From: Intestinibaculum porci
Lineage (GTDB): Bacteria; Bacillota_I; Bacilli_A; Erysipelotrichales; Coprobacillaceae
Assembly (NCBI RefSeq): GCF_003925875.1
Contig: NZ_AP019309.1
Span: 1,674,001-1,738,000, forward strand
DNA length: 64,000 bases
Direction: 5' to 3'
Both the position numbers and the translations under genes were made by a program. Below the pieces are notes generated by a model. That model ran no database searches. It was not told the DNA's origin and saw only the letters and a program-made list of their open reading frames with translations. Within the stretch, counting starts at the first letter, position 1. The number at the start of each line of letters is the position of its first letter. Shown here one piece after another: positions 54,431-60,121 of this stretch.

Positions 54431-54460
54431 AAAAAAAAATGATGGTTGCCCATCATTTTT
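54431..54460 (-). terminator. Terminator of mreC-mreD
   Basis: AAATGATGG-GCAA-CCATCATTT followed by a long T run on the minus strand. Confidence 0.85.
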
Positions 54461-54986
54461 AAGAAAATTCACTTTCATCAGTCTTGAAGTCAAATAAGCT
54501 GTAAATACCATAGACACCAGCACCAATAATCGTATTGATCAGGGTTGTCGGTAAGAGTCTTAAGCGCACAAAGCTTAAGAATGTTAAGGACGTCACATCC
54601 GTTGCGACCATCAGGTAATACACAACCAGCTCCTTAAGTAATAAGATAATAAACATCAAGACTAAATATTCTAATAGCGTAATATGATCATTGCGATAAA
54701 TATAGCTGCGCACAAAGGCGATCGCCACATAGACTAAAACGTAGATTAATAATGAGTTAGAATACACCACGCAATAGTATAAACCACATAATGCACTAAA
54801 GAAGAAACGTTCTGACGGATCATGCAAGGTCATTACCAATAATGTAAACATCATTAACCCGATTGAGGGGATAAAGCTGATGCCCGTCTTAGATAAGTTA
54901 TAAGGCAGGAAAAAGCTGATGATACTATCAAGCAGATAACATACAATCATGATCAGGAAGTTTTTATATAACTGCTTTTCAATCAT
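54459..54986 (-). CDS. mreD: Rod-shape protein MreD
   Basis: 175 residues, about five membrane helices, small and hydrophobic with a charged C-terminus (DFKTDESEFS). Overlap with mreC by four bases and family topology (IPSIGLMMFTLLVMT, GLYYCVVYSNSLLIYVLVYV, LVLMFIILLLKELVVYYLM) identify it. It works with MreC in positioning wall elongation. Confidence 0.85.
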   Translation of the reverse strand: MIEKQLYKNFLIMIVCYLLDSIISFFLPYNLSKTGISFIPSIGLMMFTLLVMTLHDPSERFFFSALCGLYYCVVYSNSLLIYVLVYVAIAFVRSYIYRNDHITLLEYLVLMFIILLLKELVVYYLMVATDVTSLTFLSFVRLRLLPTTLINTIIGAGVYGIYSLFDFKTDESEFS

Positions 54987-55828
54987 GCGTTACTCCTCTG
55001 AACGACCGCTACATAGCTTAAATCATCAAAGTCTACGGATGGTTTGACAGTGACAGTCTTCCCGGTTGCGGAAGCGTTGTTGCTTAAGCCTTTAACAGTG
55101 CCGACAAGAATACCTTTTGGGGTTTTCCCTTTGCCGCCTAAACCACTGGTCGTTACACTTGAACCCACTTTTAATTTATTTACGGTAGAAAGCATCTGCA
55201 CTTTATACGTCTGACTTTCCACATTGTAATCATTTAATAAACCATAATAATATTTACCATTAGACTTGATCATGACCGGCAGCTGCACAGAGCGATCTTC
55301 ACTCGTTAATAAAGTCACCGTTGAAGATACGCGGTTAACACTTGAGACAATCCCGATCATTCCTTTAGACGTAATCACAGCCATGCCTTTCTTCACATTA
55401 GAACCGCTGCCGATATCAATAATGACTTTGTTATCCCAGTTTTCTGAATCACGTTTAATAACCGTTGTATATTTGACTTTATAATCGGTTGGCAGCGATT
55501 TGATCTTAGTAATCGAACGCATTTCCTGTAATTCATCCGCTAATACATTATTCAAAGCCAGCTCTCTGGCATAGTTATCAAGGGAACGTTTTAAACGTTT
55601 GTTTTCACGATAAACTTCTTTGAGTTCATTATATTCCCCTAACACCCCACGTACATAATTCAGTGGTGCTTTGATCACATAATACTCGACATTAGCGACT
55701 GTATCTCTGACTATTCCGGATCCCGGAATATTGTTTGTGCTTGTCAAAAGAGAAATCACACTGGCGGCTACTAGGACAATGGTTATCCAGAACATCCGCT
55801 GACTCCTCTTATCTTTTTTATTAAACAC
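54983..55828 (-). CDS. mreC: Rod-shape protein MreC
   Basis: About 281 residues from a GTG at 55828 preceded by GAGGTGAGG; a TTG start 18 bases earlier is also possible. One membrane helix (FWITIVLVAASVISLL) is followed by a coiled coil (about 65-105) and two beta-barrel subdomains with VIIDIGSGSNVKKGMAVI and GLVG-like IGIVSSVN. It scaffolds PBPs on the outer face. mreB is not adjacent. Confidence 0.92.
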   Translation of the reverse strand: MFNKKDKRSQRMFWITIVLVAASVISLLTSTNNIPGSGIVRDTVANVEYYVIKAPLNYVRGVLGEYNELKEVYRENKRLKRSLDNYARELALNNVLADELQEMRSITKIKSLPTDYKVKYTTVIKRDSENWDNKVIIDIGSGSNVKKGMAVITSKGMIGIVSSVNRVSSTVTLLTSEDRSVQLPVMIKSNGKYYYGLLNDYNVESQTYKVQMLSTVNKLKVGSSVTTSGLGGKGKTPKGILVGTVKGLSNNASATGKTVTVKPSVDFDDLSYVAVVQRSNA

Positions 55829-55877
55829 AGTCCTCACCTCAAGCAAACATTATAGAGGAAGGCTCATTAAATTGCAA

Positions 55878-56558
55878 TTATTTATCGTGTGCGTTATACA
55901 ATGTTTCAGCTTTCATGCTGTAATACTGATGGGCCCCGATAATCAGGTGATCAAGAACATCAATGCCCATCACCTCACCCGCTTCCATTAAGTGCGAGGT
56001 GGCGATTTCATCATCTAAGGAAGGCAGTGCTTCCCCGGAAGGATGGTTATGCACGGCAATCATCGCCGAGCCGTTATGGGCTAAGACTTCTTCAAAGATT
56101 TCTCTAACGGAGATGGTCGTCGCATTATTAGGACCAATAAACATCAGTTTGCGAGCTAATAAGCGATGCTTATAATCTAAAATGAGAATTTCAAAGTGTT
56201 CCTGCTTAAAATCACTCATATCTTTCATATACTCATAAATATCCCGTGGGGTATTGAGTTTAATCCCCGGCTTAATTGGAACATTCAAGCGTTTGGCTAA
56301 TTCGCCAATGGCTAATAACTCTACTGCTTTCGCTTTCTTAATACCTTTGATGCTAATCAGCTTGTGATAGGTAACATGTTTTAAACCCTGCAGCCCATCG
56401 ATTTCTCTTAATAAACGCGTTGCTAAGGTCATAACGGATTCATGACGGGAACCGGTATGTAAACATAAAGCTAATAATTCAGTATTGCTTAACGCACCAA
56501 TCCCCAAGGCAATCGCTTTTTCCCGTGGATTTTCTTCCGGCGGTAAGGATTTGATCAT
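55878..56558 (-). CDS. radC: RadC/JAB-domain protein
   Basis: 226 residues. N-terminal helix-hairpin-helix (LISIKGIKKAKAVELLAIGEL) and C-terminal JAMM metalloprotease-like motif with HNHPSGEALPSLDDEIA. Historically linked to DNA repair; actual role is uncertain. The ATG overlaps by one base the stop of the 54-codon peptide gene upstream, forming TGATG, so it is translationally coupled to that peptide. B. subtilis has maf next to radC and mreB after it; neither is here. Confidence 0.9.
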   Translation of the reverse strand: MIKSLPPEENPREKAIALGIGALSNTELLALCLHTGSRHESVMTLATRLLREIDGLQGLKHVTYHKLISIKGIKKAKAVELLAIGELAKRLNVPIKPGIKLNTPRDIYEYMKDMSDFKQEHFEILILDYKHRLLARKLMFIGPNNATTISVREIFEEVLAHNGSAMIAVHNHPSGEALPSLDDEIATSHLMEAGEVMGIDVLDHLIIGAHQYYSMKAETLYNAHDK

Positions 56559-56722
56559 CAGTCATTCCCCCATTCAATAGTAATAATCTTCGGCAGGGAA
56601 ATGCGGCCGCGCTTTGAGCGCCATAAACGATAGAACGCGGCGCCTAATAAGGCATAGACAATATACTTCATCGGACCACCGCCATTTAAGCTGCGCATCT
56701 TTTCTTCAGACAATTCATACAT
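56558..56722 (-). CDS. 54-residue peptide with double-glycine secretion leader
   Basis: The ORF starts MYELSEEKMRSLNGG and continues with 39 residues, GPMKYIVYALLGAAFYRLW, a basic SKRGR, then ISLPKIITIEWGND. Relative to GG at -2/-1, Leu is at -12, Ser -11, Met -7 and Leu -4, matching the double-glycine leader used by class II bacteriocins and peptide pheromones for export by peptidase-containing ABC transporters. The mature part is a hydrophobic helix and a basic segment. No transporter or immunity gene is near. It overlaps radC by one base. The ribosome site is weak. Function is inferred from the leader only. Confidence 0.65.
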   Translation of the reverse strand: MYELSEEKMRSLNGGGPMKYIVYALLGAAFYRLWRSKRGRISLPKIITIEWGND

Positions 56723-56847
56723 ATAATCAACCGCTATAAGTGTGGCGAGGAAAGACTTATAGTTTTCCTTTCAAGAGTCAGGGGCCACCAGGCTTTCATC
56801 TCCCCCTACTTAATTAAAGACATTTCAGGGAGTGAATCTCACAAAAA
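56723..56847 (-). promoter_or_regulatory. Structured leader of the peptide-radC unit
   Basis: The 125 bases between the valS terminator and the peptide contain an AGGGG/CCCCT stem enclosing GCC-TGGT-GGC, and a perfect 8-base inverted repeat CTATAAGT..ACTTATAG spaced by 13, ending 13 bases before the ATG. These may form an RNA switch or operator. I did not match them to a known riboswitch. TTGAAA nearby could be a -35, but no good -10 was seen. Confidence 0.4.
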
Positions 56848-56878
56848 AAATGAGGAAAAATTTTCCTCATTTCTTATC
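56848..56878 (-). terminator. Terminator of valS
   Basis: ATGAGGAAAA-TTTTTCCTCAT followed by TTTTTTT on the minus strand. Confidence 0.85.
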
Positions 56879-56880
56879 GC

Positions 56881-59499
56881 TTACTCAAAGCTTGCTAATT
56901 TTTCTTTAGCAGCTTTATATTTAGCCTCATAATCAGCCTGTTTTTTCTTTTCTGCTTCAACTTTTGCAGCTGGCGCTTTATTGACGAAGTTTGGATTAGA
57001 AAGCATTTTCTTCGAACGTTCAAGTTCTTTTTCTAACTTTGCAATTTCCTTTTCAGCTTTCGCTTTTTCCGCTTCCATATCAATGTAAGCTCCTAAGTTG
57101 ATCGATAACGTATTCCCGCCTTTGATGACTGCATTCGCGCTATTGCGATCAACCGGCAGGTTGTAGCCAGCCACTTTCGCATTAACTAACTTAGCAATAA
57201 ATGGTGCCATATCCTGAAGTAAATCTTCTAAGTCATCGCTGTTTGTCGACATGATATATGCGACTTCAACGCTGTTTTTGATGACGTACTGATGTCTGAT
57301 TTCACGAATGGCTTTGACGATATCAATTAAGTAAGCGAACTGATCATCAATCTTATCATTAGCGAAACGTTCATCAGCTTCCGGCCAAGAAGCGATCACA
57401 ATCGATTCTGCTTTATGAGGAATCGCCTGATAGATTTCTTCCGTCACAAATGGCATGAATGGATGTAATAAACGTAACGTCGCATTTAAGACATACACTA
57501 AAGTCGAACGCGTGGCGATCTTGGCTTGCTGATCATCACCATTTAAAGTTTCTTTCGCTAATTCGATATACCATGAACAGAATTCATTCCAGATAAAGTC
57601 ATATAATTCAGAGCCAACATTTCCAAATTCAAATTTATCCATATTGTTATTGACGGAAGTAATGACTTCGTTTAAACGGTTTAAGATCCACTGATCAGGT
57701 AAGTTCAAATGCTCTAAAGTAATATCATCATAGCTCATATCTTCATCAATATTCATTAAAACGAAACGTGCGGAGTTCCAGATCTTATTGATAAAGTGGG
57801 AAATGGATTCCAGTTTTGATGGAACATAACGCATATCCTGACCAGGTGCGGTATTGTTCGTTAAGAAGAAACGTAATGTATCCGCTCCATACTGATCAAT
57901 AACATCCATTGGATCAACCCCGTTGCCTAAAGATTTTGACATCTTACGACCCTGTTCATCACGGATTAAACCATGGATTAAAACATGATTGAAAGGACGA
58001 CGTTTAGTGAATTCTAAAGACTGGAAGATCATTCTTGAAACCCAGAAGAAGATGATATCATAACCAGTCACTAAGGTATCCGTTGGGAAATAACGCTTGA
58101 ATAATGGCGCCTCAGTGTCTGGCCAGCCCATTGTACTAAATGGCCATAACGCACTTGAGAACCAGGTATCTAAGACATCTTCATCCTGTTTCCAGTTTTC
58201 AATATCTTTTGGCGCTTCTTTACCGACATAGACTTCGCCCGTCTGTTTATTATACCAGGCTGGAATCTGATGCCCCCACCATAACTGACGGGAAATACAC
58301 CAGTCTTCAATGTTTTCCATCCACTGGGTAAAAGTCTTTTCAAAACGTTCAGGAACAAAGTTAACTTTGTCATCTGTTTCCTGATTCTTTAAAGCGGCCT
58401 GGGCTAATGGTTTCATCTTGACGAACCACTGCTTAGATAAACGCGGTTCCACGATCGCATGAGAACGTTCACTATGACCAACCGGATGGACGATTTCTTC
58501 AATATGATCCACGACGCCAGCGGCTTCAAAATCTTTCACTAAAGCATCACGGCATTCAAAGCGATCCATGCCTTCATATTTACCGCATAACGCATTCATA
58601 TGACCATCATCAGTCATACAAATTGGCATTGCTAAACCATATTTCTTACCTAAAGCAAAGTCATTAGGGTCATGGGCTGGCGTACATTTCATAACGCTGG
58701 TCCCTTTGCCAAGTTCGATATAATCATCAGCCATGATTGGTAAAGCTTCACCATTAGCTGGGTTGATGGCTTTCATGCCAACATATTTGGTATAACGTTC
58801 ATCATCAGGGTGAACGAAAATCGCCGTATCCCCAAACATTGTTTCCGGACGCGTCGTTGCAACAACTAAGGTATCATCACTGCCTTCAATCTTATATTTG
58901 AAGTAGTACATATAGCCTTTGATATCTTTATGGTACACTTCGATATCCGATAAAGCGGTTCTCTGAACAGGGTCCCAGTTAATAATACGTTCGCCCTGAT
59001 AAATCAGACCTTTGTTGTAAAGGGTGACGAAAACGGTCTTTACCGCTTCGCTTAAACCTTCGTCTAACGTGAAACGTTCTTTCGAATAATCCAAAGATAA
59101 GCCTAATTTGGCCCACTGGCTACGAATAATAGACGCATATTCTTCTTTCCAGCTCCAGGCTTTTTCTAAGAATTTTTCACGGCCTAAATCATAACGAGAG
59201 AGACCTTCTTCACGCATTCGGGCTTCAACTTTCGCCTGTGTGGCGATACCGGCATGGTCCATTCCTGGCAGCCATAAAGCATCATAGCCCTGCATTCTTT
59301 TATAACGGATAATAATATCCTGAAGGGTTGTATCCCAGGCATGTCCTAAATGTAATTTCCCGGTGACATTTGGTGGCGGAATAACGATACTGTATGGTTT
59401 TTTAGACGTATCGCCCGCTTCAAAATAGCCTTTCTTAACCCAGTTGTCATATTTATCACCTTCTACTTGATGGTGATCATACTTATCTTGTAGTTTCAT
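56881..59499 (-). CDS. valS: Valyl-tRNA synthetase
   Basis: 872 residues from the ATG at 59499, which has AAAGGAG upstream. Class I motifs: [15 protein letters not shown] (HIGH) and [14 protein letters not shown] (KMSKS). An editing domain lies between them, and a C-terminal coiled coil with [21 protein letters not shown] is the ValS arm. It overlaps the upstream 212-residue gene by 17 bp, so both are read from the T-box-controlled transcript. folC and comC, which follow valS in B. subtilis, are missing. Confidence 0.97.
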
Positions 59500-60121
59500 C
59501 TTCTTCTCCTTTAAATAATTCTTTGTTTTCTCTGATATAGCTGATAACTTTCTTTTCAAAGTTTGTCCCGGCAATCATTGATTTATAGGCGGCGGTAAAA
59601 TCAGAAAAGTTATATTTCGCATACTCCCCGTCTTCTTCATCAGCGCGCATACCTTCCATGACTTCATTTAAACGCTTGGCGGCGTTTAACAGTTCAATGA
59701 ATTCGGGCGCTTTGACATTGGTGAAGATGTCATCGATCGCGTCAACGTATGGTGCCATCGCCGGTGTCATAAAGAAGGAACGTAAACCAATGGAACTCGT
59801 TAAACACTGATTGATGTTGTAAATCCCATAGACGGTCTTTTCCACTTCATTGAGATGATCGAAGTAATTTTCATCTTCGTCTTCTTTCCGCTGGCATTCT
59901 AAGACAATCGCCCCCGGCAGATTCTCATCTTCACATTCATCGATGAGTGCCGGCGTAAGATGCGCATATTTGTCTTTGAAATCCGCTAGGCGCGCAGCTT
60001 GTCTGACTTTACGCTTGCGGCTTTTGTGTAATAAACGGATTAACACAAAGGCAAAAACAAACAGCGCCGCAAAAAAGAAGATCCAGGTAAAAAGAATCGC
60101 GGTCGCATTTCCTTGCTGCAT
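59483..60121 (-). CDS. Single-pass membrane protein co-transcribed with valS
   Basis: 212 residues. An N-terminal membrane helix ([22 protein letters not shown], about 7-28) is followed by a very basic stretch and a cytoplasmic helical domain of about 160 residues with [29 protein letters not shown] and repeated acidic segments. I do not recognise the family with certainty. It lies between the T-box leader and valS and overlaps valS by 17 bp, so its synthesis should rise when valyl-tRNA is short. Its role is unknown. Confidence 0.65.

Follow-up and report, generated by a model that had tools for sequence, protein, structure and literature searches.

The valS-radC interval and its short gene

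The window, by which we mean the whole 64-kb stretch of DNA that was analysed, carries a short open reading frame (ORF) on its minus strand between valS and radC. The features of this ORF and its neighbours are:

56722..56558, minus strand: coding sequence of a GG-leader microprotein of 54 aa, with ATG at 56722 and a TGA ending at 56558; MYELSEEKMRSLNGGGPMKYIVYALLGAAFYRLWRSKRGRISLPKIITIEWGND
56678..56722, minus strand: leader of 15 aa, MYELSEEKMRSLNGG
56561..56677, minus strand: predicted mature peptide of 39 aa, GPMKYIVY...EWGND, delimited by the leader pattern and the starts of leaderless homologs
56618..56671, minus strand: predicted hydrophobic/transmembrane helix, residues 18-35 (AlphaFold2 model, hydropathy)
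56567..56611, minus strand: conserved C-terminal GRISxP..EW segment, a predicted beta-hairpin, residues 38-52 (AlphaFold2 model, invariant residues)
55878..56558, minus strand: radC (UPF0758/RadC; Pfam RadC 1e-37, UPF0758_N 1e-22)
54983..55846, minus strand: mreC (Pfam MreC 4e-35)
54459..54986, minus strand: gene of an mreD-like membrane protein, named by position (no significant Pfam match)
56881..59574, minus strand: valS, the upstream neighbour, kept beside the peptide gene (domain match and synteny)

The first-pass annotation had described a double-glycine leader followed by a 39-residue cargo, with a stop codon overlapping the start of radC. All of this is borne out on the minus strand: the leader has L-12, S-11, M-7, L-4, G-2 and G-1 where claimed, and the ATG of radC and the TGA of the peptide gene have the A in common (TGATG). 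The peptide shows the traits by which GG leaders are recognized (an end in GG, GA or GS, L-12, and hydrophobic residues at -7 and -4), with Lys at -8, the Glu(-8) of the ComA type being missing. A stricter pattern, i.e., a hydrophobic residue at -12, S/T at -11, a hydrophobic residue or Q at -7, a hydrophobic residue at -4, and GG, occurs once in the 64 kb, in this very ORF, versus 0.075 matches expected per dinucleotide-shuffled 64 kb. None of the Pfam and NCBIfam models matched the peptide. Alone among the orthologs listed, the window copy is without a recognisable Shine-Dalgarno sequence and its expression is therefore not assured. A scan of the minus strand around the ORF for promoters and terminators found nothing; by eye, an AT-rich inverted repeat with a run of T follows valS (window 56723-56880).

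Conservation in relatives had been proposed as a check on this gene. A six-frame search of 98 relatives showed that, of the 43 genomes belonging to the window's family (f1), 40 have a homolog, with the frame maintained. The leader length of 15, L-12 and GG are present in 33/33 aligned orthologs, an alignment that leaves out paralogs and the variant of genome G005, where GE replaces GG and the C39-ABC transporter (see below) is intact. Close, non-saturated pairs of peptide genes have dN/dS values of 0.02-0.18, indicating strong purifying selection; at greater distances, pairs are at or close to saturation. Between the window and G009, pN is 0.20 and pS 0.86, and the comparison with G020 gives a dN/dS of 0.47 on a rough alignment. 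The genomes without the peptide are G001 (82% complete) and G011, also without a radC match, and G010, whose radC match carries an in-frame TAG stop. Hence, the claim that an unannotated real gene lies here is confirmed by genomic comparison: the ORF is under constraint.

Some genomes, including those of genus g8, have tandem copies of the peptide gene. In genus g4 (L014, L019, L027-L029, L038-L040, L042), a second short GG-leader ORF follows the main one, e.g., MKELTTKQQRQISGGSSLVYVV...FFARR, and has a weak, sub-threshold match to the EntF induction-factor model. In G003, the main peptide is preceded by two more small ORFs with a GG leader (L011, 1240-1496, oriented), and in G016 (L007/L052) an insertion with a transposase-like ORF (TnpB-like, by eye) parts the tandem peptides from radC.

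The adjacency to radC had led to the suggestion that envelope or competence state is tied to a secreted signal. The conserved order in the family is valS-peptide-[SPOR]-radC-mreC: in most members other than the window genome, where it is absent from this place, a gene for a SPOR-domain membrane protein separates the peptide from radC. In two genomes (G003/G004) the order extends to valS-peptide-SPOR-radC-mreC-mreD-minC-minD-..-rplU-ysxB-rpmA. In families f5 and f16, whose genomes read TGA as Trp and to which we give the inferred taxon label Mollicute-like, a related peptide precedes rplU and radC is not there. Because of the intervening SPOR gene and this rplU location, we reject functional coupling to radC/mreCD as the main reading; judging from these gene orders, the position before radC is inherited, i.e., ancestral, and is not a matter of function. 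A search for related loci with radC returned only three, all distant.

The C39 partner and its fate in a sister family

The genome-wide search for a C39 transporter, also proposed at the outset, found exactly one strong C39 peptidase in the window genome. It is part of a 669-aa protein that combines the catalytic motifs with an ABC part, as C39-ABC (PCAT) transporters do, and it is encoded at a separate housekeeping locus (about 2,704,764-2,706,773 on the chromosome). This gene comes after an argD-like gene and dapE/dapH/dapF-like genes and before ybeY-cdd-era-recO, names that we assigned by sequence resemblance. The argD-like gene precedes the C39-ABC in 18 fetched relatives, and ybeY follows it in the window's own genome, in G005, in G010 (a diverged copy), and in the Mollicute-like G384 and G372. 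Among the 40 peptide-bearing genomes of the family, 39 have a C39, the exception being G002 (69% complete), and wherever the pattern is readable, the core copies have the catalytic Gln/Cys/His/Asp motifs. In a C39 tree, the core copies of the family form one clade that follows the genera, with the very divergent G010 copy apart; the sister group of this clade is made up of the f5 and f16 copies (Mollicute-like), and f12 lies outside. Together with the conserved loci, the tree indicates that peptide and C39 have both been inherited vertically, each at a housekeeping locus of its own and unlinked to the other.

Two further observations concern these relatives. G010, which has no detectable peptide, encodes a very divergent C39-ABC of 540 aa before ybeY (L252:2928-4550). 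In f12 (L174-L188), bacteriocin-like GG-leader peptides, often paired, are found by a C39-ABC and an accessory membrane protein of ~140 aa.

The sister family f2 bears on the relation between leader and peptidase. An alignment search of the order identified homologs of the peptide in 101/295 genomes. In f2 the gene lies before SPOR or radC and takes three forms: with a GG leader, with a leader that has GK, GS, GL, GM or GR, or leaderless. In the leader-bearing genomes the C39-like protein stands alone and has about 111-127 aa; ybeY immediately follows its gene in eight of them (G063, G076, G094, G096, G220, G069, G100, G110). Its AlphaFold2 model (pLDDT 85) matches the peptidase domains of PCAT1 and LahT150, whose structures are known. 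In the scored set, the stand-alone C39 is present in 16 of the 20 leader-bearing genomes and in none of the 27 leaderless ones. The Fisher p of 3e-9 for this association is computed on raw counts and ignores kinship; there was one independent change of the leader on well-supported branches and four on the best tree, so few that a phylogeny-corrected test is without power. The four leader-bearing genomes without a C39 match are 79-89% complete, and the C39 call in G192 is a Pfam match only. Outside the scored set, G087 is leaderless and yet has a C39 protein, a different, full-length one. In genus g64 (G125, G193, G282), weak C39 hits with stops were considered as pseudogene remnants; these stretches have no ybeY locus and we therefore treated the hits as chance.

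The leaderless ORFs begin 0-3 residues past the inferred cleavage site and have strong ribosome sites, as if they were the precursor with just its leader dropped. Comparison among these genomes thus shows that the leader and the putative maturase are kept, altered and lost together.

Related peptides in Mollicute-like genomes

The peptide profile of the window's family hits a related ORF before rplU in the genomes reading TGA as Trp (f5, f16), and inspection of these regions revealed GG-leader ORFs upstream of rplU in several f5 genera. A profile built for the f5 peptide has members in 51 of the 60 genomes and 10 of the 12 genera of f5, and most of those read lie just upstream of rplU. A profile-profile comparison with the window's family gives E values of 3e-7 to 4e-7 (probability 93%). 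Homology between the two groups is also supported by the peptide-radC block of G003 and G004, since rplU is downstream in it. In G419, the C39-ABC is down to fragments and the GG of the peptide has become EV. Genus g115 (f16) is an exception, with leaders ending in PG or VG and a C39 present.

The best NCBIfam match of the window genome's own C39-ABC is the Mbov_0121 mycoplasma family (NF045998; E 2e-67), at 228 bits versus a curated cut-off of 500, which it does not reach. Gene 0401 of JCVI-syn3A encodes a transporter of the Mbov_0121 type for which no GG peptide candidate was known, nor was one known in other mycoplasmas, and a role as lipoyl importer was tentatively proposed for it (PMC6609329). 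The Mollicute-like C39 copies are the sister clade of the copies in the window's family, and in contrast to 0401 their genomes have related GG peptides, mostly before rplU. This suggests the peptide as a possible substrate of the C39 transporters that are orphans in mycoplasmas, 0401 for example.

Nature of the mature peptide

The AlphaFold2 model of the peptide (pLDDT 80) has a short leader helix, a helix at residues 18-35, and a C-terminal hairpin (38-43/47-52). Residues S36, G39 and W51 are invariant across 26 diverse homologs. The hydropathy of the helix in the window's own peptide is modest (0.98 over 17 residues), and by the positive-inside rule the charge distribution probably favours a cytoplasmic C terminus.

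We find it reasonably probable that a dedicated C39 matures the peptide, which would be a membrane microprotein of the core genome and not a bacteriocin. The C39 domain would cut the precursor after Gly15, and the ABC part would insert or move the 39-residue product, which would finally span the membrane once, the basic C-terminal segment and the beta-hairpin probably facing the cytoplasm. In f2, some lineages would have lost the ABC part and kept the stand-alone C39; others, where both C39 and leader are absent, would make the peptide directly in its mature form. Since the f2 lineages without the ABC part or the C39 keep the cargo, the cargo seems to be the useful product and this ABC exporter seems dispensable there. 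The related peptides of apparently wall-less Mollicute-like genomes, where radC is not adjacent, make a role in general membrane biology likelier than one in peptidoglycan or RadC function. Export of the cargo is what a complete C39-ABC normally brings about, which counts against a membrane-resident product, and in f1 the product may be exported as well.

The peptide had been called bacteriocin- or pheromone-like. The likeness stands as far as the GG leader and the C39 transporter are concerned, but vertical conservation, and the persistence of the cargo in lineages devoid of leader and C39, make either role less likely. As a conserved secreted signal, the peptide would be cut and exported by the C39-ABC and, via a receptor, would report on cell density or state. 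The canonical leader and complete transporter of the window's family agree with this, and other pairs of C39 and peptide often serve as signals (PMC6363468). However, the cargo is conserved across genera, without the diversification that pheromones tend to show, it persists in leaderless, C39-free lineages, and no receptor gene accompanies it in the loci read; we regard a pheromone as unlikely.

That the peptide is an antimicrobial of the class II bacteriocin type, inherited with unusual stability, also seems improbable to us. The GG leader, the cationic cargo and the tandem copies of genus g8 and others would fit, as would the GG peptide pairs of f12, which adjoin a related C39-ABC and one of which matches Bacteriocin_IIc below threshold. 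Class IIb/IIc pairs are likewise small GG-leader peptides, sometimes tandem or paired, as in f12 and genus g4. In contrast to them, the window-family peptide has the GRISxP..EW hairpin segment as a conserved feature and is not flanked by genes for immunity or transport, its neighbours being valS and SPOR/radC. It is moreover nearly universal, vertically inherited and under strong purifying selection, and matches no bacteriocin family model in Pfam or NCBIfam.

The leader and the C39 could also have no functional tie, their joint retention in f2 reflecting the shared ancestry of a few lineages, as the small number of independent leader changes (one supported, four on the best tree) would allow. 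The separate co-decay in G419, the coincidence of the leaderless starts with the cleavage site, and the fact that the window's own genome has no second peptide of this type and no second C39 render this very improbable. Finally, a chance ORF in the valS-radC gap, compatible with the missing Pfam/NCBIfam family and Shine-Dalgarno sequence, is refuted by conservation, frame maintenance and dN/dS and has next to no probability.

The peptide and its C39 come closest to known C39-ABC systems with GG-leader substrates. ComC/ComA, class II bacteriocins, PCAT1-CtA and LahT likewise have L-12, hydrophobic residues at -7/-4 and GG in the leader and the C39 catalytic motifs. Unlike in known C39-ABC systems, substrate and transporter here occupy different housekeeping loci, are passed on vertically and occur in nearly every genome of the family; the cargo persists without leader and C39, and part of f2 has the C39 domain without ABC. 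We found no description of this pair in a literature search that covered few subscription journals and in which PMC6609329 and PMC6363468 were the relevant papers. A broader reading, which we put forward tentatively and with slightly less than even confidence, is that the window's order and the Mollicutes share a core, vertically inherited GG microprotein with its dedicated C39 maturase. The pre-rplU peptide would then be the hitherto unrecognised substrate of the orphan C39 proteins of mycoplasmas and spiroplasmas, the minimal-cell lineage included, and its product a housekeeping membrane peptide, neither weapon nor signal.

C39 transporters and GG leaders are usually regarded as tools of bacteriocin or pheromone production, and in the present case they look like a pair that serves maturation as a housekeeping task. 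It provides a natural series: a full C39-ABC with a GG leader, a C39 domain alone with an altered leader, and neither of the two. A question of minimal-cell annotation, namely which peptide belongs to a C39 transporter for which none was known (PMC6609329), also receives a testable answer.
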